A stretch of 64,000 bases of DNA from an uncultured Pelagibacteraceae bacterium (GTDB lineage Bacteria; Pseudomonadota; Alphaproteobacteria; Pelagibacterales; Pelagibacteraceae), in the NCBI GenBank assembly GCA_902582235.1, contig CACHQX010000001.1:190760-254759 (forward strand), read 5' to 3'. A program made the position numbers and the translations under genes. How positions within the stretch are numbered: position 1 is the first letter of the stretch; every line of letters begins with the position of its first letter. Below, piece after piece: positions 10,106-62,595 of this stretch. Below the pieces are notes generated by a model. It made no database searches. It was not told the origin of the DNA and was given only the letters and a program-made list of their open reading frames with translations.

Positions 10106-10903
10106 ATGATTGAAAAACCAAGAGCAAAAACCTTTACTAAAAACCCAATTATAGGTACTAAATTCACAATAGCAGTATCAAGCGCGAAAGGTGGAGTTGG
10201 AAAATCTACCTTCGCATCTAATCTTGCTTTAGCTTTAAAAAAGCAAGGATGTAAAGTTGGTCTACTAGATGCTGATATTTATGGTCCCTCGTTACCAAAA
10301 TTATTCGATATTGGAGACAAACCAGAAAGCGATGGTCAGAGATTAATTCCAATTTTAAAATATGATATTCAGTGTATGTCAATTGGATTTCTTACTGATG
10401 AGCAAACCCCTATGATTTGGAGGGGACCAATGGTCACCAGTGCAATAAAAACATTTACTCAAAAAGTTGCATGGAAAGATTTAGATTTTATTATCGTGGA
10501 TATGCCGCCTGGAACTGGTGATACTCAACTTACTTTTACTCAAGAAGTGAAAATGGATGGAGTGATAATAATTTCAACACCCCAAGAGATAGCCTTACAA
10601 GATGTAAAGAGAGGTATAAAAATGTTTGATAAGCTTGGAACAAAAATAATTGGATTAATTGATAACATGAGTTTTTTCAAAGGGGATGATGGAAAAAAAT
10701 ACTATATATTTGGAGAAGGTGGAGTAAAAAAAACTGCTGAAGAGTTTAAAAAAGATTTTTTGTGCGAAATCCCCCTTGATCCTGAGGTAGGTAAACAAGG
10801 TGATAAAGGAACACCAATTGTTGAAAGCAATCCAGAAAATGAGGTATCTAAGATTTATTTAGAGTTGGCTTCTAAAATTAAATCAATTTATCTTTTAAAC
10901 TAA
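10106..10903 (+). CDS. mrp: Mrp/ApbC/NBP35-family Fe-S carrier P-loop ATPase
   Basis: [44 protein letters not shown]. Confidence 0.93.
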
Positions 10904-15000: not shown

Positions 15001-15135
15001 TCATTTTACAGACGCTGAGGAGATCTAAAAAATTTTTTATTTTGTGATTTCAATTCAATGGTTACCTTCTCCAATGATTAAAACTTTTTTTCTTTGCTGT
15101 TCATTTTTTGAATAAATTGATGTATGAGTTCTCTT

Positions 15136-17055
15136 ATGTGTAGTATTCTGGGTTTAATTGATTTTAGTTCTTCAGATAAATTTAAAAATGAAAAAATTTT
15201 TTCTGTTAATAGACTGCTGAAACATCGTGGTCCAGATGATGAGGGTTATTATAATGACAAACTTGTTTCGCTAGCATTTAATAGACTCTCTATAATGGAT
15301 TTAATCAAGGGTAACCAGCCCATTATTAAAAAACATATAATTTCAATTTTTAATGGAGAAATTTATAATTTTAAAGAAATAAGAGCGGAACTAATTAATC
15401 ATGGCCATAAATTTGAAACCAATTCAGATAGCGAAGTAGTTTCTACAGCTTTTTTGCAATGGGGGATTAAATGTGTAGAAAAGTTTAATGGCATGTTCGC
15501 AATTGCGGTGTATGACAAAAAAAATAGTAAAGTTTTTTTAATAAGAGATAGGGTCGGAATAAAACCTCTTTATTTTTCACATCTAAATAATCAATTATTG
15601 TTTAGTTCAGAAATTAAAGGCATAACAAATTATCCTGACTTTGAAAAAAAATTAAATTTTAATGCCTTTTCTTCTTATCTTTTATTCAGATATCCTTATG
15701 GGAAAAATAATGTATTTTATGATAATATTCAAAAAGTTACTCCTGGAACTTTTTTAGAAGTTGATATTTTAAAGAAACAAACAAAGCAAAATACCTATTG
15801 GTCTATACCAGAAATAAATACGAAAATAAGGCATAATGAAGAGTATTATTTTCAAAAATTAGATTCTTTATTGAATAGTTCTATAAAAAAACAGTTGGTC
15901 AGTGATGCGCCGTTAGGGGTTTTTTTATCTGGAGGATTAGACTCATCAATTTTATCCTCTATAGCAGCAAAAAATATATCAGGTAAATTAAAAACTTACT
16001 CTGTTGGATTTAAAGAAAAAAAATATGATGAAACGCCTAAAGCCAGAACTATAGCAAAATATATTAATTCAGAACATACCGAAGTTTTTGTTGGCAAAGA
16101 GGACTTCTTTAATAATATTGAGAAGATAATAGAAGTAAAAGATGTTCCGCTTTCAATCCCTCATGAGTATCCATTATATCTGCTGAGTAAAAAAATGAAA
16201 CAGGATATAAAGGTAGTCTTAAGTGGAGAAGGAGCTGATGAGTTCTTTGGAGGTTATGCAAGAGTTCAAAACTCTCCAATAGATTTTGTTAAAGCAAATT
16301 TCATATTAAAGTTTACAGATAATAGTTTTGTAAAAAAAATATTTTCAGTAGATAAAAAATTTAACTATAAAAAAGATAAGTTTATTGACTTTTTTTTTCA
16401 TCAATATAATTGGTTCTCAATAGGTGAGGTAGACTCACTGCTGCATGAAAATGTAAAAAATCAAATCAACTTAGAAAAAGTTAAGGAACCTTGGACAAAT
16501 GTTTTAAAAAAATACGAAAATTCTAATTACTATAATCAAATATTACTAATGTTTCAGACCAATCATCTTCAGTGTTTACTAGATCGTTTAGACACTATGA
16601 CTATGGCGAATTCTATTGAAGCAAGGGTACCCTTTCTTGACCATGAGCTTATAGAATTTATCAATACTGTTCCGTATAAGTTTAAGATAAAATGGAAATC
16701 TAAATTTTCAAAGTTTAAATCACTTTTTTCAAATAATTTTTCTTATTCTGAAAAATATGACACAAACAAGTATCTACTAAGGAAAGTTGGAGAAAAATAC
16801 TTGCCTAAAAAAATGTCAGAGGAAAAAAAATTAGGCTTTCCTTTACCTATGAATGAGTGGATGCACGATAAAAAAGTCAAAGAAATTCTTTTAGACAAAA
16901 AAACTCTAGAAAGAAACATTTTTAACCAAAAAAAACTTGAAAATTTTTTAGATGATAAAAATACAAAAGATGACAATTATGATTTTAATGGAAAAAAAAT
17001 TTGGATGATGTTGAATTTTGAACTTTGGATGAGAAACAATATGGATCAAAGATAA
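15136..17055 (+). CDS. asnB: Glutamine-dependent asparagine synthetase family (AsnB-like)
   Basis: MCSILG N-terminal nucleophile Cys; GVFLSGGLDSSILSSIAA; LSGEGADEFFGGY. The ORF-track Met at 15124 would bury the catalytic Cys, so start moved to 15136. Confidence 0.9.
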   Translation: MCSILGLIDFSSSDKFKNEKIFSVNRLLKHRGPDDEGYYNDKLVSLAFNRLSIMDLIKGNQPIIKKHIISIFNGEIYNFKEIRAELINHGHKFETNSDSEVVSTAFLQWGIKCVEKFNGMFAIAVYDKKNSKVFLIRDRVGIKPLYFSHLNNQLLFSSEIKGITNYPDFEKKLNFNAFSSYLLFRYPYGKNNVFYDNIQKVTPGTFLEVDILKKQTKQNTYWSIPEINTKIRHNEEYYFQKLDSLLNSSIKKQLVSDAPLGVFLSGGLDSSILSSIAAKNISGKLKTYSVGFKEKKYDETPKARTIAKYINSEHTEVFVGKEDFFNNIEKIIEVKDVPLSIPHEYPLYLLSKKMKQDIKVVLSGEGADEFFGGYARVQNSPIDFVKANFILKFTDNSFVKKIFSVDKKFNYKKDKFIDFFFHQYNWFSIGEVDSLLHENVKNQINLEKVKEPWTNVLKKYENSNYYNQILLMFQTNHLQCLLDRLDTMTMANSIEARVPFLDHELIEFINTVPYKFKIKWKSKFSKFKSLFSNNFSYSEKYDTNKYLLRKVGEKYLPKKMSEEKKLGFPLPMNEWMHDKKVKEILLDKKTLERNIFNQKKLENFLDDKNTKDDNYDFNGKKIWMMLNFELWMRNNMDQR

Positions 17056-17774
17056 TGAAAGCAATAATATTGGCTGCTGGAAAGGGCACTAGATTAAAAA
17101 AATATCATAATTTACCAAAAGGATTGCTGAAGTTTGGAAAAAATAAAATCTCAATCTTGGAACGACTTTGTGCAATATTAAAAAAAAATAAATTTAAAAA
17201 AATTGTAATAATAACTGGTTACAAAAATAAACTTATAGAGAGAAAAATTGGAAAAGTAGCTCAATATATTTATTACCCAGGTTTTAGAAACAATAATAAT
17301 TTACAAACCTTATTAGCTGCAAAAAAAGAATTAAATGAAGGATTTTATTGTTTCTTCGCAGATTTAATTTTTGATGAGAAAATAATTAAAAAATTAATTG
17401 AAAAAAAATCAAATGCTTGTTTAACGATAGATACCAAAAAGATTTTAAGTGGCACCATGAGAATTAAAAAAAAGCAAGATAAAATTATAGGAGTTGGTAG
17501 TCATATACCTACTAAAAATGGGGATGGAAATTTTATTGGTATTGCAAAGTTTTCAAAACCTGGAGCTCTTTTGCTTAAGAGTCATTTGATGAGAGAAAAA
17601 AATAACAAAAAAGACTATTATACTCATGTAATTAATAAGATTATTGAAGAGAAAAAAATAGTTAATTTTTTTGATTGTAAAAGATATTTCTGGAAAGAGA
17701 TTGACACTTACAAAGATCTTTGTGATATGAAAGCTGTTATTAATAAAAAAAAATTTAAATATTGGCCTTTATGA
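17055..17774 (+). CDS. Sugar-phosphate/choline-phosphate-type nucleotidyltransferase (LicC/PntC-like)
   Basis: MKAIILAAGKGTRLKKYHNLPKGLL; start at internal Met 17055, overlapping the end of asnB. Confidence 0.85.
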   Translation: MKAIILAAGKGTRLKKYHNLPKGLLKFGKNKISILERLCAILKKNKFKKIVIITGYKNKLIERKIGKVAQYIYYPGFRNNNNLQTLLAAKKELNEGFYCFFADLIFDEKIIKKLIEKKSNACLTIDTKKILSGTMRIKKKQDKIIGVGSHIPTKNGDGNFIGIAKFSKPGALLLKSHLMREKNNKKDYYTHVINKIIEEKKIVNFFDCKRYFWKEIDTYKDLCDMKAVINKKKFKYWPL

Positions 17775-19072
17775 AGAAAAAAATTGTTTATGTATGTATG
17801 TCAGCAGATATTTTACACGCTGGGCATATAAATATTCTTGAGCGAGCATCTAGGCTAGGAAATGTAGTGGTTGGCCTAATGACTGATCAAGCAATTAGTT
17901 ATTACAAAAAGATTCCTTTTTTAAACTACTATCAAAGAGAAATAGTTATAAGAAATTTAAATATGGTTCATGGAGTTGTTCCACAAAATACAATGGATTA
18001 CAGGCCCAATTTAAGAAAAATAAAACCAGATTATGTAGTTCATGGTGATGATTGGAAGAATGGAGTGTTAAAAGAAAATAGATCACAAGTAATTAAAGAA
18101 ATAAAAAAATGGTCTGGTAAACTTGTGGAATTCCCTTACACAAAAAATGTATCCTCAACAAATCTTAAAGAAAGTTTTTTTAATAAAAACTTTTATTCTT
18201 TTAATTCTAATAGAACCTCTCTTTTAAAAAGAATGATTGAAGCCAAAAAATTTGTTAGAGTAATTGAAGCTCACTCGCCTTTGGCTGGTTTAATAGTCGA
18301 GAATACAAAAGTAAAAAAAAAGACTGGTGATGCGGATTATGATGGAATGTGGTCTTCGAGTTTAACTGAGTCTTTATTACGTGGAAAACCCGATAATCAG
18401 TCAGTAGAATTATCAACTAGAATTAATGCTATTAATGAAGTTTTAGAGATAACAACTAAACCAATGGTCTTTGACGCAGATAACGGCGGAAGAGTTGAAC
18501 ACCTACCTTTCACAATTAAATCTCTAGAAAGACAGGGTGTTTCAGCTATTATTATAGAGGATAAAATTGGTCTTAAAAAAAATTCTTTATTTAAAAATCA
18601 AAAAAATGCAAAACAAGACAGCATAAAAAACTTTTGTAAAAAACTAGAAGTGGCAACTAAATCTAGAAAGTCTGATGATTTTTTGATCATAGCTAGAATA
18701 GAAAGTTTTATATTGGGTAAAGGAATTAATGATGCTTTGAAAAGAGCAAACGCTTACTCTAAGGCAGGAGCTGATGGAATACTAATACATAGTAAAATTG
18801 ATACTCCAAAAGAAATTTTTAAATTTTCAAAAATTTTTAGAAAAAGTAAAAACTTTAAATTTTTAATAGCTGTACCATCAAGTTACTCAAAAACTTACGA
18901 AAAAGATCTTATTAGAAATGGTTTTAGTGTAGTAATATATGCAAATCATATGTTGCGGGCCTCATATTTAGCTATGAACCAAGTTGCTGAATCCATATTA
19001 AAAAATAGCCGATCTGCTAATATAGAAAAAAAAATATCTTCCATAAAAGATTTGCTTAAGTATTCCTTATAA
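17771..19072 (+). CDS. Bifunctional cytidylyltransferase-phosphoenolpyruvate mutase (Fom1-like architecture)
   Basis: N-terminal HAGH and VSSTNLKE cytidylyltransferase motifs; C-terminal EDKIGLKKNS matches PEP mutase signature EDKxxxxxNS. Start probably MKKKIVYV at 17771 (ORF track 17762). Confidence 0.93.
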   Translation: MKKKIVYVCMSADILHAGHINILERASRLGNVVVGLMTDQAISYYKKIPFLNYYQREIVIRNLNMVHGVVPQNTMDYRPNLRKIKPDYVVHGDDWKNGVLKENRSQVIKEIKKWSGKLVEFPYTKNVSSTNLKESFFNKNFYSFNSNRTSLLKRMIEAKKFVRVIEAHSPLAGLIVENTKVKKKTGDADYDGMWSSSLTESLLRGKPDNQSVELSTRINAINEVLEITTKPMVFDADNGGRVEHLPFTIKSLERQGVSAIIIEDKIGLKKNSLFKNQKNAKQDSIKNFCKKLEVATKSRKSDDFLIIARIESFILGKGINDALKRANAYSKAGADGILIHSKIDTPKEIFKFSKIFRKSKNFKFLIAVPSSYSKTYEKDLIRNGFSVVIYANHMLRASYLAMNQVAESILKNSRSANIEKKISSIKDLLKYSL

Positions 19073-19077
19073 ATTTT

Positions 19078-20187
19078 ATGATTGATACTTCTAAATTTAC
19101 AAAACTTTTATTTAAAAAAGGAATTGAATTTTATGCAGGAGTGCCTGACAGTTGCATGAATGAATTTTGTAATGAGATAAATAATAATAAAAAAATAGAA
19201 AACATTACTTCAGCTAATGAAGGAAGCGCTGTTTCACTTGGTGTTGGTTATCATTTAATTACAAAAAAAATTCCTTGTATTTATTTGCAGAATTCAGGTA
19301 TGGGAAATGCAACAGATCCTTTAACTAATTTAGCAAATCCTGAAGTTTATAATATACCTATGTTGTTAATGATTGGCTGGAGAGGAGCCCCGGGTATCAA
19401 AGATGAAGCCCAACATAATATTCAAGGCAGAACAATACATAAAATTTTAAAGTTATATAAAATTAAGTATCTAATACTTAAAGATAATAAAGATTTAAAA
19501 AAAGTATCAAATTTAATAAATTATGCAAAAAAAAATTCTTGTCATGTAGCATTACTAGTAAAACCTAAAACTTTTAAAAATGTAAAAAAAAAAGTAATTA
19601 AAAATAAAGCTGATCAACATTCAAATATTTCAAGAAAAGATGTTGTTTTATCACTCTTAAATAACGTCTCAAAAAGAACGAAAATAATATCTTCAGTCGG
19701 TTTTAACTCCCGTGAAATTTTTCAAATGCGTAAAGAAAAAAAAATTAAAAATGGTAAAGATTTTTTAATGGTTGGTGCAATGGGTCACACAGCGATGGTT
19801 TCTTTGGCTATTAGTAAATTCACAAAAGAAAGTACTATTTGTGTTGATGGTGATGGATCTTTCATAATGCATTTAGGGGCTCTAAGCTTACTTAGCAATC
19901 ATAAGAGAAATAATTTTAAATATTTACTTATAGATAACGAGGCGCATGAGTCTATTGGTGGTCAACCTATAAAATTTCAAAATTTTAATATTAAGAAAAT
20001 ATCAGAGGCAATGGGATTTAAACAAAGCTATCACACAAAAAGTTTAAACAAACTAGAGGTTCTAATGAAAAAATTTATAAAATCTTCTGGGCCTTCTTTT
20101 TTTCATATAAAAATAAATTCAGGTACTCTTAAAAACCTAGTAAGACCTAAGAACTTTTTAGAAATCAAAAAAAAGTTCATGAATTGA
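19078..20187 (+). CDS. Phosphonopyruvate decarboxylase (ThDP-dependent)
   Basis: FYAGVPDSCMNEFCNEI; GDGSFIMHLGALSLLSNH...IDNEAHESIGGQPI; immediately downstream of PEP mutase. Confidence 0.93.
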   Translation: MIDTSKFTKLLFKKGIEFYAGVPDSCMNEFCNEINNNKKIENITSANEGSAVSLGVGYHLITKKIPCIYLQNSGMGNATDPLTNLANPEVYNIPMLLMIGWRGAPGIKDEAQHNIQGRTIHKILKLYKIKYLILKDNKDLKKVSNLINYAKKNSCHVALLVKPKTFKNVKKKVIKNKADQHSNISRKDVVLSLLNNVSKRTKIISSVGFNSREIFQMRKEKKIKNGKDFLMVGAMGHTAMVSLAISKFTKESTICVDGDGSFIMHLGALSLLSNHKRNNFKYLLIDNEAHESIGGQPIKFQNFNIKKISEAMGFKQSYHTKSLNKLEVLMKKFIKSSGPSFFHIKINSGTLKNLVRPKNFLEIKKKFMN

Positions 20188-33541: not shown

Positions 33542-34462
33542 TTATGCGATAGATTTTAGAATATTCTTGTTCAAAAAGGAATGCGGAATATTTTTCTCTT
33601 TTAGCTCAATAATCGAGAAATTTTCATTTTTACTTAGTAATTTTCTCAGACCTTGATTGGTGATATTATGACCGCCTTGACAAGAAGTGATTTTACCAAC
33701 TATTTTAAAACCTGATAAGTATAGATCTCCAAGACAATCCAAAATCTTGTGATTTACAAATTCTTTTTCATTTCTGAGCTTTTCCTTATTAAGTATTTTG
33801 TTTTCTTTTACGACTATTGCGTTATCTAAAGAACCACCTTTTGCAAGATTTAAATTTTTAAGTTTTTCTATGTCTTCGTATAAACAAAATGTTCTTGAAT
33901 TATACATATCTGACAAATCATCCATATAAATGTTAATTTTGTTTTTTTGATTATTGATTAATTCGTTTTTAAAATTTATTTCAAAATCAATTTCTAAACT
34001 TATTTTACTTGGCTGAAAAGAAATTGATTTTTCCCCTTCTTTGTAAATTATTTCTTTATCGATAGTTATAATCTTTATTGGTTGGTCACTTATTTCAAAA
34101 CCAGCTGAGTCAATTGCCTCAACAAAATTCTTAGAAGATCCGTCTAGTATTGGCACCTCTTCAGCATCAATTTCAATTAATAAATTATCTATACCTTTTC
34201 CATATAATGCTGCCATTAAATGCTCAATAGTTGAGACGGACACACCATTTTCATTTGAAATCTTTGTACAGTACGAGGCACTCGAAACATTGAATACACT
34301 TGGATAAATTATATTATTCGAAACTAAATCAGTTCTTTTAAAATATATTCCAATATTTGGTTTCTGGGGAACTAACTTTAGATTTACCTTTCTACCCGAG
34401 TGAAGACCCACGCCTGATAGCATTATAGCGTTTTTAATCGTTTTTTGTTTTAAAACAGACAT
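33542..34462 (-). CDS. lpxC: UDP-3-O-acyl-N-acetylglucosamine deacetylase
   Basis: GVGLHSGRKVNL, STIEHLMAALYG, HKILDCLGDLYL. Confidence 0.96.
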   Translation of the reverse strand: MSVLKQKTIKNAIMLSGVGLHSGRKVNLKLVPQKPNIGIYFKRTDLVSNNIIYPSVFNVSSASYCTKISNENGVSVSTIEHLMAALYGKGIDNLLIEIDAEEVPILDGSSKNFVEAIDSAGFEISDQPIKIITIDKEIIYKEGEKSISFQPSKISLEIDFEINFKNELINNQKNKINIYMDDLSDMYNSRTFCLYEDIEKLKNLNLAKGGSLDNAIVVKENKILNKEKLRNEKEFVNHKILDCLGDLYLSGFKIVGKITSCQGGHNITNQGLRKLLSKNENFSIIELKEKNIPHSFLNKNILKSIA

Positions 34463-34529: not shown

Positions 34530-35234
34530 TTAACTAAAAAAATTGAACATTCTCTCAAATAAACCCTGGGTTTTAGCCTTTAAATTGTGTATTTTTACTT
34601 CTAAGGGGTTGATACCATCAATCACTTTCTTGCCAGCATTACAAGGACTTGGATCTTTTTTATCTGCAAACCTACTTGAGTATTGATGGCTTACAATTTT
34701 TTTTAACTCAATATTGCAATCTTTAAGAATTCTATTCAACATTTTGACAGTTGAACTATTAATTGTAATGAAGCTAACGTCTAAAATAAATTCTTTATAG
34801 TCAAGATTTTCTGGAAACTCAAAATATTTTTTACCATCAATAATATATTGATCGACTAATACATGTAATATATGACAGTTTTTATTATTTCTCATTACAA
34901 GTTGTTTAGCATCACTTATTAATCTAACAATATCAGTCTCCTTTATTTGATTAGAGCTGTGTTTACTTTTTAAACTTAAGGAGAATTTATTATACTTTGC
35001 ATCTGTAATTACATTTACTTCTTCAATAAAACTTCCTACATCTTTTTCAAAATCTTTAACTTTTTCTAAAATGAATTTTGTTAAAATTGTTAAATTTAAG
35101 TTATCATCTAAAGAATCCGGCATTAAATATTTTTTTTGATGATTGGAATTGTCCTCTTCAGAACTAAAATAACTTAGATGAAGGTTATGGTCAACTATCG
35201 CAAGATAAAAAGATTGAGATTCCTTATTAGTCAT
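34530..35234 (-). CDS. ftsA: Reduced FtsA-like protein lacking the C-terminal actin-like ATPase subdomains
   Basis: Position between ftsQ and lpxC; SHC/1C-like stretch ILHVLVDQYIIDGKKY...EFILDVSFITINSSTVKMLNRILKDCNIELKKIVSHQYSSRFA; C-terminal amphipathic LKAKTQGLFERMFNFFS; only 234 aa. Confidence 0.7.
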   Translation of the reverse strand: MTNKESQSFYLAIVDHNLHLSYFSSEEDNSNHQKKYLMPDSLDDNLNLTILTKFILEKVKDFEKDVGSFIEEVNVITDAKYNKFSLSLKSKHSSNQIKETDIVRLISDAKQLVMRNNKNCHILHVLVDQYIIDGKKYFEFPENLDYKEFILDVSFITINSSTVKMLNRILKDCNIELKKIVSHQYSSRFADKKDPSPCNAGKKVIDGINPLEVKIHNLKAKTQGLFERMFNFFS

Positions 35235-35919
35235 AAGTGATTACCTTATTAGGAACTCTTAAATCTATAATTTTTGACGCATTAAATAATTTGTCTTCAA
35301 TAAGCCGTAAGCTCAGATTTAAATTATCAATTGTTAAATCAATTGGAAATCTGATTTTTTTTTTATTTTTCAAAATTATATCTATCCTATCACTTGGAAA
35401 AAAAATTATTTTTTTTATATTTCTAATATTAAAGTTAGATTTATTTATAATTTTAATAGTTTCAAAAACTTTTTTAATATCATTGGTTCCATTAACTTCA
35501 GGTATGTCCGAGGGTAAACTTTCTAAGTCAATTATTTTTCCATTATTTCCTAAAATAACTAATTCATTTAAATATTTTATAACACTGATAGCCATAGCTG
35601 ATTCAATATAAACTTTTATATGATTTGGATATATTTTTTTTATATTGTATCTGTTTATTAAATTTTCAGATTTTATAAATTTAAAATACTCTTTATCAAT
35701 TGTAAAAATATTTAATCCAATTAAATCCTTTAATTTTTTTTCTAAAAGTAGATTATCTCTTTCATCTAAACCAACAACCTCAATTTTTTTAACAATAAAA
35801 AAATTGTTATATTTAAAATTTAAATTATGTGTTGATGAAAAGATTAGAAAAATAATTAAATAAAAAAAAATATATTTTTTCTTATCTATTTTTTGAAGCA
35901 TCTTTAATAATCCAGTCAA
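35227..35919 (-). CDS. ftsQ: Cell division protein FtsQ
   Basis: Single TM, POTRA-like FFIVKKIEVVGLDERDNLLLEKKLKDL, position between ddl and ftsA. Confidence 0.85.
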   Translation of the reverse strand: MTGLLKMLQKIDKKKYIFFYLIIFLIFSSTHNLNFKYNNFFIVKKIEVVGLDERDNLLLEKKLKDLIGLNIFTIDKEYFKFIKSENLINRYNIKKIYPNHIKVYIESAMAISVIKYLNELVILGNNGKIIDLESLPSDIPEVNGTNDIKKVFETIKIINKSNFNIRNIKKIIFFPSDRIDIILKNKKKIRFPIDLTIDNLNLSLRLIEDKLFNASKIIDLRVPNKVITYD

Positions 35920-49421: not shown

Positions 49422-50864
49422 TTAATTTTTTTGTCTTCTTAAAAATGCTGGTATTTCTAGTTCGTCTTCTTCATCTGAATCGCTGTCCTCATTTATATTA
49501 GTCTCATGATCAGAGTTTATACTTTGTGTCTCGTCAAATAATTGAGGATCCTCTGCATCTAAATTGAAGTTTTCAAGTCCATTAGACTCATCTCCCGAAG
49601 TATTTACATCGTTATCGCTAAGTATCAGTTTTTCCTCCAACGAATTCTCCTCGTTTATGTTTTCACTTGTAATAGGATTTTCTACTGCCATTTTTTCATC
49701 GACCATAGAAGACATCAAATCATTTTCTGAGACTTTGATATCATTCGTCTCTATTTTCAATGCATTAGCTCCACTTGTGGATAATCCTTTATTCACTTCA
49801 TAAGAGTAATTTGGTCTTAAATTTGAAAAATCTGAATAACCTGGATTTCTGTTTTGTATTCTATGCACCATATTGATTACTGATTTCGATTCAGGTTGTT
49901 GCCCATCTAAAGAAGTTGCAACAATAGATACTCTCAATCTACCTTCTAAAGAAGGATCAATTATGCAGCCTTTAATAAATTCTACCTCAGGATCAACTTC
50001 AGATGTAATCTTTTTAACAACTTCATCAACTTCAAAAAGTGTTAAGTCTTTGCCACCAGTAATATTTATTAATAAACCTTTGGCACCCTTTAAAGAATAG
50101 TCATCAATTAAAGGATTGCTTATAGCTTGTTCGGCAGCATTGATAGCTCTGTTTTCTCCTTCAGCTTCACCAGTACCCATCATCGCTTTACCCATTGAAC
50201 TCATTATAGACTCTACATCCGCGAAGTCTAAATTGACTAGACCGGGACGTACCATTAAATCAGTTACACTTTGAACACCTTGTAAAAGCACGTCGTTTGA
50301 AAGTTCAAATGATTCTTCGAAAGTTGTCTTCTCATTTGCAATCTTAAATAAATTTTGATTTGGAACTACTATTATAGTATCTACGTGTTTTCTTAATTCC
50401 TCTAGACCTTGTTGGGCTCTTCTCATTCTAGATGAGCCTTCATATAAAAAAGGTAAGGTTACAACACCTACCGTAAGAATATTAAGTTCTTTTGCAGCTC
50501 GAGCAATTACATGAGCAGAACCAGTTCCTGTTCCACCGCCCATTCCTGCAGTTATAAAAACCATATTTGCACCTTGCAAACAATTTACTATTTCATTTAA
50601 TGACTCGTCAGCAGCAGCTTGACCAATATCAATTTTTGATCCAGCTCCTAGACCCTTTGTTAAATTTAAACCAATTTGTATTTTTGCCTTTGCTTTACTA
50701 TGGATTAAATCTTGTGCATCAGTATTAACCGCCACAAATTCAACCCCTTGAAGTCCACTCTCAATCATTTTATTAATTGCATTTCCTCCAGCGCCACCTA
50801 CACCTAAAACCAGTATTCTAGGTTTGAGCTCTTTTATCTCAGGTGTTTTAAAATTAATGGTCAT
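49422..50864 (-). CDS. ftsZ: Cell division protein FtsZ
   Basis: GVGGAGGNAINKMI; GGGTGTGSAHVIAR; C-terminal DELEIPAFLRRQKN. Confidence 0.97.
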   Translation of the reverse strand: MTINFKTPEIKELKPRILVLGVGGAGGNAINKMIESGLQGVEFVAVNTDAQDLIHSKAKAKIQIGLNLTKGLGAGSKIDIGQAAADESLNEIVNCLQGANMVFITAGMGGGTGTGSAHVIARAAKELNILTVGVVTLPFLYEGSSRMRRAQQGLEELRKHVDTIIVVPNQNLFKIANEKTTFEESFELSNDVLLQGVQSVTDLMVRPGLVNLDFADVESIMSSMGKAMMGTGEAEGENRAINAAEQAISNPLIDDYSLKGAKGLLINITGGKDLTLFEVDEVVKKITSEVDPEVEFIKGCIIDPSLEGRLRVSIVATSLDGQQPESKSVINMVHRIQNRNPGYSDFSNLRPNYSYEVNKGLSTSGANALKIETNDIKVSENDLMSSMVDEKMAVENPITSENINEENSLEEKLILSDNDVNTSGDESNGLENFNLDAEDPQLFDETQSINSDHETNINEDSDSDEEDELEIPAFLRRQKN

Positions 50865-54257: not shown

Positions 54258-55520
54258 TTAATTTTTTTTAAAAAAAATATTAGTTTCCTTATTTATTGCA
54301 TACATTAATGAGAAATTAATCATAAATAATGTAATATTAAAATTATTAAAAAAAGATCCACTTGGTAAAATTGGAACAAAATTTATTAGTAAAAATATAA
54401 GGCACCCTGCCTGAATATAATTCCTTGTATCTATTATTTTTCTTATCAATCTAAAAGCAAGGTAGAAAATTATTCCCATGATAATTATTGTGCCGACAAT
54501 GCCATGCTCAGACAACATCTCAATATAGATTTGATGAGGATGAGTTAAACAATAATACTCATTATGAATTGAATTTTTATCAGTATCGCATGTTTCAACT
54601 CTGTAATTTTTATTACCTACTCCAAACCAAGGGTTGTTTTTAAAAACATAAAATCCTGACTTATATAATTTTATATAAAGACTATTATTTAAAAACTTTT
54701 CTCTTTCATCTTTTGTATTTATTTTTATGTATAGCTGATCAATGTACCTATATTTGACATAATCTGAGAAATTTACAGTTAATAGGAAAATTATAAAAAG
54801 TGTTGAGAAAACTAAAATTTTGTCTCTTAATTTTACGTAATCAATTATTGAAATGAAAATGGAAAATCCTATCAAAGCTTTTAAACCATTAGATCTTTCG
54901 CCTGTAACCATTACTCCAACTAAACAAAAAAAAATAATAAGGAATCCAAGCAGTTTTAATATCTTTTTCGATTTTAAAAAATTTAATACAAATCCTACAA
55001 CTATAAAAGAGAAACCACATAAAAATGCTCCAGGGATTGGTTCTGTTTTAAAAAAACTTACAACTCTATAACCTCGAGTTTGGGCATTAATAGCATTTTC
55101 TATTCCTCCAAAACCTAAAATATTACTCCCAGTAAATCTTTCGATATAAACGTCAATCAGTACTACGAAGAATATTATGCTCCAAATTTTTAGAATGCTT
55201 AAATTTTTCTCATTAATAAAAAAAAGATAGTTTATCATTAGAAAGAATAAGATAAATCTTACAAAACCAAAGTTTCTGTAAATTCCCGACATTATATCGT
55301 TTGAGATAAGAGAATTAAATACAAGATACAAATTGAGAATAATTAAAAGTAAAACTGGTTTAAAATCGTAAATTCTAATATCATTTTTAATAAAATAAAT
55401 TAATATAAAGCATAGACCAAATAACACAGTATTAATCAGTGAAACACTTGAGCCTAAAATTATTGAGATAGGCAAGAAAGATAATAATACTGTTGGAATA
55501 ATTATTTTTATATTATTCAT
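54258..55520 (-). CDS. O-antigen ligase/polymerase-like membrane protein (Wzy_C/WaaL type)
   Basis: Multi-TM; WFGVGNKNYR...HPHQIYIEMLSEHGIVG. Confidence 0.8.
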   Translation of the reverse strand: MNNIKIIIPTVLLSFLPISIILGSSVSLINTVLFGLCFILIYFIKNDIRIYDFKPVLLLIILNLYLVFNSLISNDIMSGIYRNFGFVRFILFFLMINYLFFINEKNLSILKIWSIIFFVVLIDVYIERFTGSNILGFGGIENAINAQTRGYRVVSFFKTEPIPGAFLCGFSFIVVGFVLNFLKSKKILKLLGFLIIFFCLVGVMVTGERSNGLKALIGFSIFISIIDYVKLRDKILVFSTLFIIFLLTVNFSDYVKYRYIDQLYIKINTKDEREKFLNNSLYIKLYKSGFYVFKNNPWFGVGNKNYRVETCDTDKNSIHNEYYCLTHPHQIYIEMLSEHGIVGTIIIMGIIFYLAFRLIRKIIDTRNYIQAGCLIFLLINFVPILPSGSFFNNFNITLFMINFSLMYAINKETNIFFKKN

Positions 55521-56217
55521 GTTTTAATTTAAACTTTTCACACTTAATTCTTTTTGATTTATGAACTGTCAATTTATTTTCTTTGATGACAGACAATCTT
55601 TCGAAAATATTATAAAAAAAGTCTGGTCTTATTGTATCGAAAATAATTTTTGTATTTTCTTTTGAAACAGAATTTAAATAACTAGAGTAAAAATTAAAGT
55701 CATAGTGATAATCAAGCGAGTATAAAGAAATTATTAAATCGTAATTTTTTAATGGAAAGTTTTTTTTGTCAAAATCATAAATTTTATATTGGTTATCATT
55801 GATGCCATTAAGATTAAAAAATTCTTTTGTTGTTGATAAATTGTTATAGGCTTCATTATTTTTATAATCCCATCCATATTTTATTTTATTTGAAACATAG
55901 TTTTTTTCTATTAAATCTATTTTTGTATTAGGAAATTTTTTTAAAATATAAAGCTCTAGACCACCTATTCCTCCTCCAATACTTAAAATTTGTTGTCCAT
56001 CTACTAAGAAACCTTTAATGTTCTCATATTCGTCATTTATAAGTTTGGAATATTTTCCTGATACCTTTATCGTATCTATCAAATATTTTGAAAAAATTTT
56101 TGAAAATAGGTATCTTCCAAATAATTTTCTTATCCTCATTAAAAATTGGTTTGCAAGTTCTATTCTTTGTAGAACCGCTAACTGCGCAATATCTCTTGTA
56201 AATTTAAGTTTTTCCAT
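55513..56217 (-). CDS. Class I SAM-dependent methyltransferase-like protein
   Basis: QILSIGGGIGGLELYILKKFPNTKIDLIEKN. Confidence 0.6.
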   Translation of the reverse strand: MEKLKFTRDIAQLAVLQRIELANQFLMRIRKLFGRYLFSKIFSKYLIDTIKVSGKYSKLINDEYENIKGFLVDGQQILSIGGGIGGLELYILKKFPNTKIDLIEKNYVSNKIKYGWDYKNNEAYNNLSTTKEFFNLNGINDNQYKIYDFDKKNFPLKNYDLIISLYSLDYHYDFNFYSSYLNSVSKENTKIIFDTIRPDFFYNIFERLSVIKENKLTVHKSKRIKCEKFKLKHE

Positions 56218-56342
56218 TTTGAATTTTGGTTTAAATATAATTGTTTACATTAAATAACATAATTTATATGTAAATTTACTAAGTAATATAATTTATTTTA
56301 ATGTATTTTATATGTTATCTTGCAAAATTATAGGAGTTTAAA

Positions 56343-57215
56343 CTGACTCTAGAAAATAGAAAAAAGTGTCCAAGCTGCGGCGAAAAGAATTTTAATGAAA
56401 TTTATTCCTTGCCTTATAGCTCGGAAAAAATGCAAAATTTTTTAACTTCTTATTATAAAGAAAGAATCAATATTAAAAAATTAGAGAAATTTAAGTTTGT
56501 TTTATTAGAATGCAATATCTGTAAAACAATCTTTCAAGAACAAATACCAGATAGTAATTTCTCCTTTGAGTTATATGAGGAAATAATTGATAAAGATGAA
56601 AGTTTGGCGAAAAAAGAAGATTTTGAAAAGAAAAATATAATTAAATTAGATTATGAAATAGGACTGATAAAAGGACTTTTTAAAAAAAATAATGAGGAAA
56701 TAAAAATAATGGAATTTGGCGCTGGGTGGGGTTTCTGGTTAAACTATTTAAAAAAGAATAATTTTAATGTATCTGCTTTTGAAATTTCGAAGTCAAGAAT
56801 AGATTTTATGAAGAATAAAGAAATTAATGTAATATCAGATCTTCTGTCAGTTAAAGAGAACTTTGATTTTATATTTTCAGAACAAACTTTTGAACACATT
56901 TCAAATCCAAGAGATACATTATTTAATTTGTCCAAGATATTGAAATATGACGGTTACATTTTCTTAAGATTTCCTAGTAGTTTCCTTTTCAATTTAAAAT
57001 TAAATAAAAGTTATAAACCAAAAAATGATTGTGTACATCCTCTAGAGCATATAAATTTATTTAGAAAAAAAAGTTTTGAAGCTATGACGAGTAATTCTAA
57101 TTTACAAATAATTAATTTTAGATCTCGATACAATTTTAGTATAATTAATGCTTTAAAAGATATAAAAAATTTTTTTTATTTTGACTCCATTCTTATAAAA
57201 AAAACAAACAAATAA
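56343..57215 (+). CDS. Class I SAM methyltransferase with N-terminal CxxC...CxxC zinc-ribbon; probable CTG start
   Basis: Frame is open from a TAG at 56331; GGAG at 56333-56336 precedes CTG 56343; gives (M)TLENRKKCPSCGEKNFNEIYS...LLECNICKTIF...IMEFGAGWGFWLNYL. Confidence 0.7.
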   Translation: MTLENRKKCPSCGEKNFNEIYSLPYSSEKMQNFLTSYYKERINIKKLEKFKFVLLECNICKTIFQEQIPDSNFSFELYEEIIDKDESLAKKEDFEKKNIIKLDYEIGLIKGLFKKNNEEIKIMEFGAGWGFWLNYLKKNNFNVSAFEISKSRIDFMKNKEINVISDLLSVKENFDFIFSEQTFEHISNPRDTLFNLSKILKYDGYIFLRFPSSFLFNLKLNKSYKPKNDCVHPLEHINLFRKKSFEAMTSNSNLQIINFRSRYNFSIINALKDIKNFFYFDSILIKKTNK

Positions 57216-57310
57216 CTATGAGAAAAAAGTTATTAGTTTCCTTCCTCTCATGAGTTTGTAGTATTGAATAAAATTTTTAGAAATATAAAAAAATTAATAA
57301 ATATTTTTTT

Positions 57311-58462
57311 TTAATTAATATTTAATATCTTATCAAGTGCTAAATAGTGTCTAAACATTGTATATTTTTGTGCATTTCTCTTTAAAATAACTTTATCGGA
57401 AAAAACCTTTTTTTCACTTAAACTACAATAGTTTTTTAAACTATTTGAGAGACTCTTTTTATGATTATTTTTGAATAATAAACCATTTTTTCCATCGTTT
57501 AAAAATTCTTTAGGTCCATTTGGACAGTCACTTGAAATTACATAAGCATTACTCATTGCCGCTTCAACAATAACAAAACCTACTTCTTCCCATAATGAAC
57601 TTAATACAAAAATTTCACAATTTTTCATGTAATTTACAATATCCCTTTTAAAACCGAGTAAAAAAATTTTTTCTTTCAATTTTTTTTTATCAATTAACTT
57701 AACGAGTTTTCTCTTCTCCTCACCCTCTCCCAATATGATTAAAATAAAATCGTTATTTTCTTTTAAAAATTCTGAAAATTCTTCAATTAAATAAGAAAAA
57801 TTTTTTTGTTTTGTTAATCTGCCAGCTGATAAAATTATTCTTTTGTTATTTATTGCTATTAGATCGGCAGGAATTCTATTATTTTTTTCAAAATTTTTAA
57901 TTTTTATTATTGCATCTGGTAAATAATACAAATTTTTTTGACTGAATATTCTTTGATTTTCGAGTTTCTTTTTAAGATCTAAAGTTGGGCACGTTATTAT
58001 CTTAATTTCATTTGAAATAAATTTCCAAAAAATTCTTCTAACTATATTCAACCTTGGGTATCCGGAAATTCTTAAAATAAATTCAGTTTTAAAATTAAAT
58101 AGTTTTAAAAGTAATAATGGAAGTGAGGTTATTAAATGTAATATAATTTTGTTGGGCTTTTGTTTTTTCAACATAAAAATAAGTGGGAAAAATGACAAGA
58201 TGAATATTAAGATATAAGAAATTCTACTACCAAGGAACCCTTTTTTAGGTAGAATTTTGAAATATTTAAAGTTTAAATCAATTAAATTAATTGAGTTTTC
58301 ATCAATGGTTTCTCTATATTCATCCCATTCACCACAGACATTTATAATTGATACATTATAATCTTTATTAAATTGTTTCAACGAAGTTGCCGAATTTATT
58401 GTCGATTTAATAGTTCCCACTGGATTAAGGCATGGAGACCAGTAAAAAATATTTTTTTTCAT
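57311..58462 (-). CDS. Family 4 glycosyltransferase
   Basis: ILSAGRLTKQKNFSYLIEEF...FVLSSLWEEVGFVIVEAAMSNAYVISSDCPNGPKEFL. Confidence 0.9.
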   Translation of the reverse strand: MKKNIFYWSPCLNPVGTIKSTINSATSLKQFNKDYNVSIINVCGEWDEYRETIDENSINLIDLNFKYFKILPKKGFLGSRISYILIFILSFFPLIFMLKKQKPNKIILHLITSLPLLLLKLFNFKTEFILRISGYPRLNIVRRIFWKFISNEIKIITCPTLDLKKKLENQRIFSQKNLYYLPDAIIKIKNFEKNNRIPADLIAINNKRIILSAGRLTKQKNFSYLIEEFSEFLKENNDFILIILGEGEEKRKLVKLIDKKKLKEKIFLLGFKRDIVNYMKNCEIFVLSSLWEEVGFVIVEAAMSNAYVISSDCPNGPKEFLNDGKNGLLFKNNHKKSLSNSLKNYCSLSEKKVFSDKVILKRNAQKYTMFRHYLALDKILNIN

Positions 58463-58501
58463 AATTATATGTTCCTTAATAAATCATACGGATTTAGGTA
58501 A

Positions 58502-59179
58502 TTATTTTTTTACTATAAAATTAAAGCCACTACATTGTTCAATGTTTTTAGTGTCACTCGTAAATTTATCTAATAGAATGTTAATGCCTGTTTTTTCAAT
58601 GTGTCTTTTCCACCTTGGCTGAAATAATATATTTAATGGTGTTGATATTCTGCCCCTAATAGGAAAAATTTCCAAATTTTTAAAATCTTTGAATAAGTAT
58701 GACAAAGCATCTTTTGAGAATCTGAAGTAATCCTGAAATTTTAGATCAGTAGGAGCATGATAATAAAATAGGTAAGGAACATAACCATACAAAACACCGT
58801 TATCTTTGAGCATCATCCTAATATTTCTTACAGCTTGAAAGGGATCATAGACATGTTCTAATACAGCAATACAAATTATTTTATCAAATTTTTTTATTAG
58901 TGTTTCATCCAGCTCACTGCATATATCATAGACTATATCTGGATAATCCCCAAAATCATTTACATCAACAGTCAATATTTTTTTTGCTTTAATTTTTGTA
59001 AATTTATCACGCATTCCTTTTCCAATATCTAAGATATCATCATTAATTTTAATATCTTCAATTATTCTGTTTCTAAAATCTTTTTGATTCTTGATGTAAT
59101 AGTTATTAATTTTTGTTCTTTTTATTAAATCAATTAATTTTGAGTTAGTTTTTTCTGGTTGACCAATTATCTTTTTCAT
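58502..59179 (-). CDS. SAM-dependent methyltransferase
   Basis: IDVNDFGDYPD-like region: DDILDIGKGMRDKF...KIICIAVLEHVYDPFQAVRNIRMMLKDNGVLYGYVPYLF. Confidence 0.75.
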   Translation of the reverse strand: MKKIIGQPEKTNSKLIDLIKRTKINNYYIKNQKDFRNRIIEDIKINDDILDIGKGMRDKFTKIKAKKILTVDVNDFGDYPDIVYDICSELDETLIKKFDKIICIAVLEHVYDPFQAVRNIRMMLKDNGVLYGYVPYLFYYHAPTDLKFQDYFRFSKDALSYLFKDFKNLEIFPIRGRISTPLNILFQPRWKRHIEKTGINILLDKFTSDTKNIEQCSGFNFIVKK

Positions 59180-59197
59180 ATTGTTCCAATTAATTTG

Positions 59198-60298
59198 CTA
59201 GTTTTCTAAAATTTTTTTTACTCTCCACAGCATATTTTCTTTTTTTGCAAACATAAAGGCGTTATACCTTATTTGATTATATCTTTGAAAGTTTTTTGAA
59301 ACATATTTTATTATTTTAAGCCAACTATTAGAATTATTAAAATTTTTAACAAGGATAGAGTTAAAGTTATTTTTTAATACTTCTCTTAATACTGGTAAAT
59401 CTGAACATATAATAAGTTTGCCGTTTATCATATAATCAAAAACTTTTAATGGGGAGGTATATTTAGAAATGTCTCCAACATCACCCGAAACAGTAATTCT
59501 TTTTGTATATGGTAAAATACAAACATCAATTTTTTTAATCTTATTAGATATTTCTTTAAATGGAACGTGGCTATTGATAATGAGATTTTTACCAAAAAAG
59601 GATGATTTTATTTTTTTAACCTCTTTCTTTGTTCCCCCATAGACAATATAGTCATTTTCTTTATTTAGTTTACAAAGTTTCAAAATCATTTCTATTCCTC
59701 TTGATTTATAAATTGAACCAAAATATCCTATTTTAATATTTTTATTATGATTGAATTTAAAACGCGGTTTTAAAGATGTCCCATTATGTAAGACTTGTAT
59801 TTTTTTTTCATTTACATCCCAGTTATCCATAAAATATTTTTTTAAAGTTTCTGTGGTGACTGTAATTTTGATTATTTTTTTAAAATTTAGAAAATTTAAT
59901 TTCCTTTGTAAAATTTTGATGAACCTACCTTCAATTTCAAGTGTATCATGAATTTCAAGTATCACTTTTTTTTTAAATATACTTAATACGAATGCTGCAA
60001 AATAATTTCTTGTAATGAATAAATCTGGATTAAAATTAAAACTTTTAAAAATTGCTATTAAAGAAAATAAATAATACCTTATGCCTGTTGGAAATTTTTC
60101 GAACAATTTAAGTCTTAATATTTTAAATTTCTTATCTATATTGTAAAAATTAAAATAATTTTGACCAGTGCCAGTATTTGGTAATATTAAAGTTACTTTA
60201 TGGTTGAGAATAGAAAGAGCTTCGCATAATTTGGAAACTTGAAGACTGCTGGCATTTTTTGATGGTGCTGCTGAGTTAGATATAATAACAATATTCAT
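59198..60298 (-). CDS. Family 4 glycosyltransferase
   Basis: IGYFGSIYKSRGIEMILKLC...YTSPLKVFDYMINGKLIICSDLPVLREVL. Confidence 0.85.
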   Translation of the reverse strand: MNIVIISNSAAPSKNASSLQVSKLCEALSILNHKVTLILPNTGTGQNYFNFYNIDKKFKILRLKLFEKFPTGIRYYLFSLIAIFKSFNFNPDLFITRNYFAAFVLSIFKKKVILEIHDTLEIEGRFIKILQRKLNFLNFKKIIKITVTTETLKKYFMDNWDVNEKKIQVLHNGTSLKPRFKFNHNKNIKIGYFGSIYKSRGIEMILKLCKLNKENDYIVYGGTKKEVKKIKSSFFGKNLIINSHVPFKEISNKIKKIDVCILPYTKRITVSGDVGDISKYTSPLKVFDYMINGKLIICSDLPVLREVLKNNFNSILVKNFNNSNSWLKIIKYVSKNFQRYNQIRYNAFMFAKKENMLWRVKKILEN

Positions 60299-60379
60299 TC
60301 AAAGCTGTTATTTAACAATATTTAATTATATATATAATCATTAAGTATTTGTAAGGTAATTATATAATTTGTTAAAATT

Positions 60380-61258
60380 ATGTTATTAAAAAAAATAAAA
60401 AATATCGTTATTACCATAGACAACAAGTTCTTAAAATCCTTAATAATTGATACATATTTAAAATTAAAATATTTTTTTAAAATAAAAAGAGCTTACGCTT
60501 CTATTGGAAAAATTAATATTGAAAAAAAAAGAAAACATACCTTGAATAAAGAATTATTAATATCTCTTACATCTTACTCAAAAAGATTTAGAACATTGCC
60601 TTTGGTTTTGTATTCACTCCGAAATCAATCTATTTTGCCTGATAAGATTGAAGTTTGGATAGAAGAAAATGACAAATCTTTACTACCAGACAAAATATAT
60701 AATTTAAAAGATGTGAAGATTAAAATTTGTGAGAACGGTCTTTATTCATACAAAAAAATTATTCCCTCTTTAAGAGAAGATGACAACAGATTTATAGCTA
60801 CCTTTGATGATGATATAATATATCCAGAAAATTCATTGGAAGCTTTAATTTTAAAATCCAAAAAATATCCTAATGATATAATCGCTAACAGAATTCACGA
60901 GATAAAATTGAAAAATTCCTTACCAGACTCATACGATAAGTGGGAAAAAAATTTCTTAGGTGAAAATGATTTAAGTTTTTTTACAAGCGGGGGCGGAACT
61001 CTCTTTCCACCAAAATGTTTTTACAAAGACATTTTTAATAAAAAAAGTTTTATGGAACTTTGTCCATCTGCTGATGATATCTGGTTAAATTGGATGGCGA
61101 AATTGAATGATAAAAAAATAAGACACTCAGGAATAGAAACGAAATATACTTTAATAAAAGTGATAAAATCTGGCCTATGGAAAAAAAATGTAAAACAAAA
61201 CTTTAATGATGTTCAAATAAAAAGAATTATTGAAAAATATGGTTTCCCGTATAAATAA
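60380..61258 (+). CDS. GT-A-fold glycosyltransferase-like protein
   Basis: LISLTSYSKRFRTLPLVLYSLRNQSILPDKIEVWIEEND...FIATFDDDIIYPENSLEAL. Confidence 0.7.
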   Translation: MLLKKIKNIVITIDNKFLKSLIIDTYLKLKYFFKIKRAYASIGKINIEKKRKHTLNKELLISLTSYSKRFRTLPLVLYSLRNQSILPDKIEVWIEENDKSLLPDKIYNLKDVKIKICENGLYSYKKIIPSLREDDNRFIATFDDDIIYPENSLEALILKSKKYPNDIIANRIHEIKLKNSLPDSYDKWEKNFLGENDLSFFTSGGGTLFPPKCFYKDIFNKKSFMELCPSADDIWLNWMAKLNDKKIRHSGIETKYTLIKVIKSGLWKKNVKQNFNDVQIKRIIEKYGFPYK

Positions 61259-61273
61259 ATAAACTTACTTCTT

Positions 61274-61993
61274 CTAAATTTTTTGGAAGGTTTTAAAGTC
61301 TTTTGGAGTGTCAAACTCATGCCAATTAAATTTTTCAGAAATAGCATTTATCTCTAAATTATTTTTTATCAATTCCATCAAAAAATTAGTGAAATCAATT
61401 TTTTTGTTATTTTTAAGTATTTTATTAACAAGTCTTTTTTTTAAATATTTAATTGTTTTTTTTGAAAATTTCGTAATACCCAAAAATCTTCCATCAATAT
61501 TTTCCAAACTAAATGTTTTTTTGCCAAGAGAATAAATTTTACCTTTATTGATTTTAAGAACCTCTAAATCATTTAAAAAATTTGATTTTTTTTTCCATTT
61601 TTTTTTCCAATCTGTATCGATAACAGTGGAAATCGAATGTTTACTTTTTATTATTTTACTTAAACATTTTTTTTCAAATAAAATATCTGAATAAATAACT
61701 ATAGTTTCATCTGGTTTTATTTTTTTCAAAACTTGATTAAATGAATAAACCATATTTGTAGAATTAAAATTTTTATTAAAAATATATTTATATTTATCTA
61801 AAGTTTTATTTTTAATAAGTTTAGACTTAAAACCGGTTGCAAAATAAATTTGATAATTTTTGAAACCACAATTACGTAGGATTTTGAGGTTCTTTTCAAT
61901 AAGCATTTCTCCATCATTAAATTTATATAAACATTTTGGATATCCAAGATTTGTTCTTCTACTTTTTCCAGCACATAATAAAATAATCTTCAT
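61274..61993 (-). CDS. Nucleotidyltransferase; candidate CTP:phosphoglutamine cytidylyltransferase (Cj1416-like)
   Basis: MKIILLCAGKSRRTNLGYPKCLYKF...NSTNMVYSFNQVL...IVIYSDILFE; ATGA-type overlap with the upstream amidotransferase. Confidence 0.7.
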   Translation of the reverse strand: MKIILLCAGKSRRTNLGYPKCLYKFNDGEMLIEKNLKILRNCGFKNYQIYFATGFKSKLIKNKTLDKYKYIFNKNFNSTNMVYSFNQVLKKIKPDETIVIYSDILFEKKCLSKIIKSKHSISTVIDTDWKKKWKKKSNFLNDLEVLKINKGKIYSLGKKTFSLENIDGRFLGITKFSKKTIKYLKKRLVNKILKNNKKIDFTNFLMELIKNNLEINAISEKFNWHEFDTPKDFKTFQKI

Positions 61994-62595
61994 TTAATTT
62001 TAAGTTTTTTTATAATCAAATTTAGTTGATTATAAGTTTTATTTCTTTCAGGATGCCACATTAATCCAAGAATATTTTTTCTTTTGTGCTTAAATATTTC
62101 AACATTTTTATCTTTATCTAAAGCAATTACATCAAATTTGTTAGACATTTTTTTTAATGGAATGCCAAAATTATGAAAACTATTTACATACATAAATTTT
62201 TTACCAAAAATTTTTTTTTCAAAATAAATTCTATGACTATTCTTCATGTGTCCATAAATTCTATTTTGTTTACCTTTAAAAAATAAATTTATTACTTGCA
62301 TGCCTCTACAAATGCCTAAAATTGGAATATTGTTTTTTAACGCATATTTTATAAGTTTAAACTCAACTTTAAGTCTTATCCTTGAGATTTTATTTTTTGA
62401 ATAGACGTCATTACCTCCGGGCAAAATCACTAATCTTATTTTATTTTTAGAAAAATTTTCTTTGTAGTTAGCTATATTTGGTATTAAAAAAAAGGATATT
62501 TTTTTAAGTTTAAAATAACTTATCCAATAGTGATCTATAAAATCAATATATGTTTTATGATATTTTTTATAATTACTGGAAATAATAACACTCAT
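61990..62595 (-). CDS. Class I glutamine amidotransferase/C26 hydrolase; candidate gamma-glutamyl-CDP-amidate hydrolase (Cj1417-like)
   Basis: LVILPGGNDVY; ILGICRGMQVINLFF (nucleophile Cys); GLMWHPERN. Confidence 0.75.
   Translation of the reverse strand: MSVIISSNYKKYHKTYIDFIDHYWISYFKLKKISFFLIPNIANYKENFSKNKIRLVILPGGNDVYSKNKISRIRLKVEFKLIKYALKNNIPILGICRGMQVINLFFKGKQNRIYGHMKNSHRIYFEKKIFGKKFMYVNSFHNFGIPLKKMSNKFDVIALDKDKNVEIFKHKRKNILGLMWHPERNKTYNQLNLIIKKLKIK

Follow-up and report, generated by a model that had tools for sequence, protein, structure and literature searches.

A half-length FtsA with a predicted in-frame deletion of domain II in Pelagibacteraceae

In the characterised FtsA proteins, the C-terminal peptide of FtsZ binds to subdomain 2B, and deletion of 2B abolishes FtsZ binding (PMC4281207, PMC8998562); in Escherichia coli this loss is accompanied by filamentation (PMC4281207). 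Subdomain 1C recruits FtsN and FtsQ (PMC4281207, PMC8998562, PMC7613929), with the cytoplasmic tail of FtsN sitting in the cleft between 1A and 1C (PMC7613929). In addition, self-interaction of FtsA competes with recruitment and its loss favours recruitment (PMC8998562), and the longitudinal contacts of the crystal filament run from 2A to 2B of the neighbouring FtsA (PMC7613929). In Neisseria, on the other hand, the contacts with FtsN and FtsQ are carried by 2A/2B and not by 1C (PMC5727935).

The recruiting side of the E. coli protein has likewise been split from its FtsZ side and from polymerisation, in isolated 1C, in 2B deletions and in self-interaction mutants (R286W), although all of these are engineered or point mutants and differ in this from the natural protein described here. 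The FtsA-like PilM of type IV pili also differs from it, being a full-size protein that binds ATP. In PilM, the 1A-1C cleft accommodates a short cytoplasmic peptide belonging to a bitopic membrane protein (PMC7613929). The 64,000-nucleotide stretch of DNA analysed in this work (the window) comes from an uncultured Pelagibacteraceae bacterium with a draft genome that is 88% complete, and carries in its ftsA slot a gene encoding half an FtsA (half-FtsA). A literature search returned no paper on a short FtsA in this bacterial group and no natural protein of such a make-up. We know of none either, and to our knowledge half-FtsA may be the first natural half-actin.

Locus, family assignment and anatomy of half-FtsA

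The half-FtsA gene lies exactly at 34530-35234 on the minus strand, as an ORF of 234 aa with an ATG start and zero internal stops. Its start overlaps by 8 nt (ATGACTAA) the end of ftsQ (35227-35919, minus strand; identified by PF03799, a weak POTRA match and its sequence), and most related single-cell genomes show the same ftsQ overlap. The downstream neighbour lpxC (33542-34462, minus strand) fixes the ftsA slot, since the order ftsQ-X-lpxC is conserved in the loci covering the slot and is common to species with short and with full-length FtsA; half-FtsA thus occupies the position after ftsQ that defines FtsA. The whole minus-strand cluster reads mraZ-ftsZ-mraW-ftsI-murEF-mraY-murD-ftsW-murG-murC-murB-ddl-ftsQ-X-lpxC-bamD-ligA, X being half-FtsA, with gene names mostly read from the translations. 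These observations bear out the original prediction of an intact ORF of 234 aa, instead of roughly 400 or more, in the ftsA slot.

Two further regions of the window were recognised by reading. Positions 15124-20187 contain one ORF resembling asparagine synthase and another resembling phosphonopyruvate decarboxylase, as well as nucleotidyltransferases and a PEP-mutase-like fusion, a possible phosphonate biosynthesis cluster judging from these translations. At positions 54258-63998, a series of ORFs similar to glycosyltransferases, methyltransferases and O-antigen polymerases looks like a surface-polysaccharide island.

The NCBIfam ftsA profile (TIGR01174) matched half-FtsA at 4e-12, with the match confined to profile positions 45-186 of 371 and its score below the curated whole-protein cut-off (45.9 vs 175.85 bits). 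The Pfam model of the 1C domain, SHS2_FTSA (PF02491), matched residues 93-141 above its cut-off (28.0 vs 25.4 bits; 2.9e-6). In a profile-profile comparison of 14 short with 17 full-length FtsA proteins of the order, the alignment was colinear over positions 1-215 (probability 99.7, E 9e-27). Furthermore, when the short-form profile was compared with solved structures, FtsA alone was matched, weakly (7q6d, E 0.0029; 7q6g, E 0.016); the region matched in 7q6d corresponds to residues 99-195 of E. coli FtsA, and the structure-profile alignment revealed a 1C core, LHxxxxxYxID, common to both proteins. An AlphaFold model built from eight close sequences only (the window protein and seven relatives) reached a pLDDT of 35 and a pTM of 0.26; the order of its secondary-structure elements looks compatible with 1A-1C, and at this low confidence the model is not used as evidence.

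Alignment with full-length relatives allowed us to assign the parts of the protein, with approximate boundaries. Residues 1-80 (34995-35234, minus strand) correspond to the first part of subdomain 1A, in which the first strand pair is kept and the DxG phosphate-1 motif is missing. Subdomain 1C, of the SHS2 type and inserted in 1A as in FtsA, spans residues 81-158 (34761-34994, minus strand; PF02491 and 7q6d), and is followed by the second part of 1A at residues 159-195 (34650-34760, minus strand). From the comparison of the full-length G025 protein with the short G034 protein we infer an approximate deletion junction at residues ~194-195 (34650-34655, minus strand). What is missing with respect to full-length FtsA is 2A and 2B, roughly 135-160 aa, which we take to be "domain II", the second half of the actin fold. 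None of the phosphate 1, phosphate 2 and adenosine motifs was present in the aligned short sequences (the G012 row of this alignment being without its N-terminus), and all of them were present in full-length relatives.

Past the conserved tyrosine 185, the short proteins have about nine residues and then the last helix, a linker and the membrane helix. In the window protein, residues 196-234 (34533-34649, minus strand) comprise the ancestral last helix, the linker and the C-terminal amphipathic helix (QGLFERMFNFFS). The likeness of this tail to that of full-length G025 (CESGLKVIKGQSKQEVVIVPKKIEKKGFFEKLFHFFK in G025 vs CNAGKKVIDGINPLEVKIHNLKAKTQGLFERMFNFFS in the window) was established by eye from identities, automatic alignments placing the remnant helix at the start of 2A instead. 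F226 and F230 are invariant and the hydrophobic moment is 0.66, so that the C-terminal segment is, like that of FtsA, a predicted amphipathic membrane helix. The original prediction of a C-terminal amphipathic segment can thus be refined: the last ~38 aa contain the ancestral final helix and linker in addition to the membrane helix.

Altogether, the comparisons show half-FtsA to be, as far as sequences tell, an FtsA descendant with an internal in-frame deletion of domain II (2A + 2B), in which domain I, the closing helix and the tail are kept. Common descent with the TIGR01174 family is seen in the genomic slot, in 1A and 1C, in the closing helix and in the amphipathic helix, whereas domain II, the ATP motifs and the known FtsZ site are lacking in this protein of 234 vs ~400 aa. 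Because it has neither the ATP site nor 2B and scores below the family cut-off, three tests that define FtsA, half-FtsA is not filed as an ordinary member. The original prediction had described FtsA descent, an N-terminal strand pair without DxGT, a 1C-like segment and a missing 2A/2B ATP-binding core, all of which agree with these data. Its further claim that both ends of an FtsZ-membrane tether are retained holds for the membrane tail and is not supported for the FtsZ side, since the known site for the FtsZ peptide lies in the deleted 2B.

Recurrence, selection and number of deletions

Besides the window's genome, 15 species-level genomes of this genus, a group of marine bacteria with small genomes, carry a short FtsA, with a length of 231-236 aa where complete and an open frame in 14 of them. 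Open short forms occur in G008, G016, G032, G034, G014, G006, G033, G022, G009, G029 and G024, and intact ones also in two closed genomes, with 233 aa in G255 and 232 aa in G341; the short FtsA of G035 is cut by a contig end, and that of the closed G012 is interrupted by a frameshift within a T7-A8 run (L077:16763-17459). One genome (G021) was too incomplete to be classed. In addition, 234-aa versions with 65-94% identity are encoded at seven loci of a second collection, made up of named single-cell genomes (AG-..., labelled "uncultured Pelagibacteraceae"); by its length and position, the AG-404-O17 contig is identical with that of G008, which leaves six further named single-cell genomes beyond the species-level count. 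The survey of relatives suggested with the original prediction thus revealed the same deletion repeatedly. Given 15 further occurrences at species level, two of which are intact copies in closed genomes, the length of this form is not an accident of assembly. Among the window and the seven named loci, dN/dS was 0.215 for half-FtsA, with values of 0.18-0.23 in each part of the protein; in the same set it was 0.23 for the neighbouring ftsQ and 0.05 for lpxC. These substitution patterns show that the intact gene is under purifying selection.

Full-length FtsA proteins of 369-394 aa are present in other members of the same genus (G007, G025, G030, G004, G031, G023, G005, G018, G027 and G013), and these relatives keep 2A/2B with D-G, IDIG and GxGS motifs. 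Some of them (e.g. G025, G007, G030) are the nearest relatives of half-FtsA in the 1A-1C tree and have a very similar tail, the difference being the 2A/2B that half-FtsA is missing. In G010, a full-length ftsA frame contains a single in-frame TAA between domains I and II (L062:2217-3362); this codon, which may be real or a sequencing error, would yield a 183-aa domain-I protein without membrane tail. The closed genomes of the sister genus (G152 and G415) encode FtsA proteins of 400-401 aa, and those of the sister family have about 393-396 aa. Among 386 sampled alphaproteobacterial genomes, nearly all frames in the matches listed were full-length, with 400 aa or more; weak matches were examined for about 30 of these genomes, so short forms elsewhere are possible. 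In two closed 1.5-Mb genomes of another family of the class (G260 and G346), the FtsA profile matched MreB- and DnaK-like proteins only, and FtsA is missing or very diverged there.

The FtsA profile search found neither a second or full-length FtsA nor a detached 2A/2B half in the window's genome and the closed G255 and G341; the full-length copy that the original prediction had named as counter-evidence thus did not turn up there. The other profile matches in these genomes, at positions ~169-346 in ~350-aa frames and ~243-355 in ~650-aa frames, have the length and profile range expected for MreB and DnaK; in the window's genome, MreB was also identified by reading the sequence. The short gene of G341 was too diverged for the profile and was found by its slot, therefore very diverged FtsA copies could escape this search. 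Eleven genomes of the genus without FtsA match were tested for lpxC and it was missing as well, indicating that the region was not assembled.

These data bear on two rival explanations. A truncation by assembly, a gene fission or another protein in the ftsA slot might be suspected from the incomplete draft genome and the low sequence identity to FtsA, but the presence of the form in two closed and in named single-cell genomes, the clear FtsA profile match and the absence of a separate 2A/2B piece refute such an artefact as far as present data go, and we consider it highly improbable. A decaying gene, with FtsA becoming dispensable in streamlined genomes and the short form as a stage of its loss, would fit the identity between groups (20-30% for FtsA vs ~70% for FtsZ), the in-frame TAA in the full-length gene of G010 and the frameshift in the short gene of G012. 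It is already disfavoured, and appears unlikely, in view of a dN/dS of 0.21 that is even across the protein and of a length that hardly varies and a frame that stays open in 15/16 species-level genomes with the short form and in 7/7 named loci; moreover, the G012 lesion falls in a homopolymeric T7-A8 run of the kind where base-calling errors are common.

The number of deletions was approached through trees. In a tree of ten neighbouring genes, the short species form three groups, one of them with the full-length G025/G007/G030 as nearest relatives, and forcing the short species together on these genes was rejected (AU p 0.022 and 0.013). In contrast, the FtsA 1A-1C tree groups the short forms as a single clade (98/97) whose next relatives are G025/G007/G030, although the alternative topology following the neighbours was not rejected by the 1A-1C data (p 0.10); ftsQ was neutral between one and several deletions (p 0.10). 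The trees thus suggest one deletion according to FtsA and up to three according to the neighbouring genes. The spacing across the junction is near-constant among short forms (one additional residue in G016/G032), which favours a single deletion followed by exchange of the gene by recombination, while several deletions in parallel are possible, in which case the loss of the ATP site would have drawn similar sequences together. Locus L081 (AG-914-A09) is a mosaic with respect to the window (98-99% identity in murC/murB, 66-72% in ftsQ/ftsA and 84% in ligA), a pattern that points to recent recombination, with its breakpoint close to ddl.

FtsZ, candidate partners and possible roles

The ftsZ gene (49422-50864, minus strand) lies between mraZ and mraW rather than behind ftsA, and keeps its C-terminal peptide (DELEIPAFLRRQKN). 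This peptide, EIPAFLRRQK-N, is alike in species with short and with full-length FtsA, with variants in the last residue only, and a change of the FtsZ peptide accompanying the truncation was therefore rejected. A moved ftsZ tied to the truncation was rejected as well: the mraZ-ftsZ-mraW placement is also found in full-length FtsA members of both families, and since the sister genus and family share it, it is an order-level trait unrelated to the truncation. Searches for the alternative FtsZ anchors SepF and ZipA returned no family member (0/61 and 0/11 genomes), and FtsX was not detected in family searches; ZapA is present. FtsN was discarded as a partner of 1C, as no FtsN was recognised in the genus. 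The only SPOR-domain proteins found there (L101-L130; L120 being G000:C8 around 10286-10438) resemble RlpA-type lipoproteins of ~250 aa.

With 2B as the FtsZ site, the 1A-1C cleft as the FtsN site and 2A-2B as the filament contacts, half-FtsA keeps the recruiting module and the anchor and loses the FtsZ, ATP and filament side. We propose that an in-frame deletion took domain II out of an ordinary FtsA, and that the resulting protein would be unable to bind ATP or to form actin-like longitudinal filaments, would have lost the known site for the FtsZ peptide, and would, on the membrane, recruit or signal to downstream transmembrane proteins of the divisome. Such a protein may resemble ordinary FtsA in its recruitment-competent state, which is reached only once self-interaction is broken, and it might have no link to FtsZ any more, an indirect one, or one through a new 1A/1C surface. 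We assign a probability of about 0.5 to half-FtsA being a functional, permanently open and non-polymerising membrane-bound 1A-1C platform of this kind. Against it stand the lack of a recognised FtsN as 1C partner and the location of the FtsN/FtsQ contacts on 2A/2B in Neisseria (PMC5727935). In addition, FtsA is fast-evolving in these bacteria and carries lesions in G010 (stop) and G012 (frameshift), which could mean that the need for it is weak.

A further difficulty for the platform is that the FtsZ peptide is kept while SepF, ZipA and FtsX were not found, therefore some FtsZ anchor is needed and half-FtsA is the sole familiar candidate. For the same reason, a half-FtsA that still tethers FtsZ through a re-routed 1A/1C contact, without ATP or filaments, stays a serious rival, even if we hold it only tentatively. 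It is consistent with such a tether that the FtsZ peptide does not differ between species with short and with full FtsA, and that the membrane tail is by dN/dS as constrained as the rest of the protein. However, the sole characterised FtsZ site lies in the deleted 2B, an anchor of a new family would escape family searches, and in other bacteria the FtsZ peptide has further binders such as ClpX, ZapD and MinC. In these marine bacteria, half of an actin fold that has neither nucleotide site nor filament interfaces may even, as the sole FtsA, connect FtsZ with both the membrane and the late divisome by way of a novel FtsZ-binding surface, a possibility that we hold only tentatively.

In the field of bacterial cell division, the purpose of the ATP and filaments of FtsA is still an open question. 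A natural lineage without the ATP-, polymer- and FtsZ-binding half, in which the remainder is under selection, and with close relatives that have the full FtsA, constitutes a ready-made separation-of-function experiment, and half-FtsA asks which job of FtsA is indispensable and how FtsZ is anchored without 2B. If a new FtsZ-binding surface on half-FtsA proved true, the ATP cycle and the polymerisation of FtsA would be dispensable in nature.
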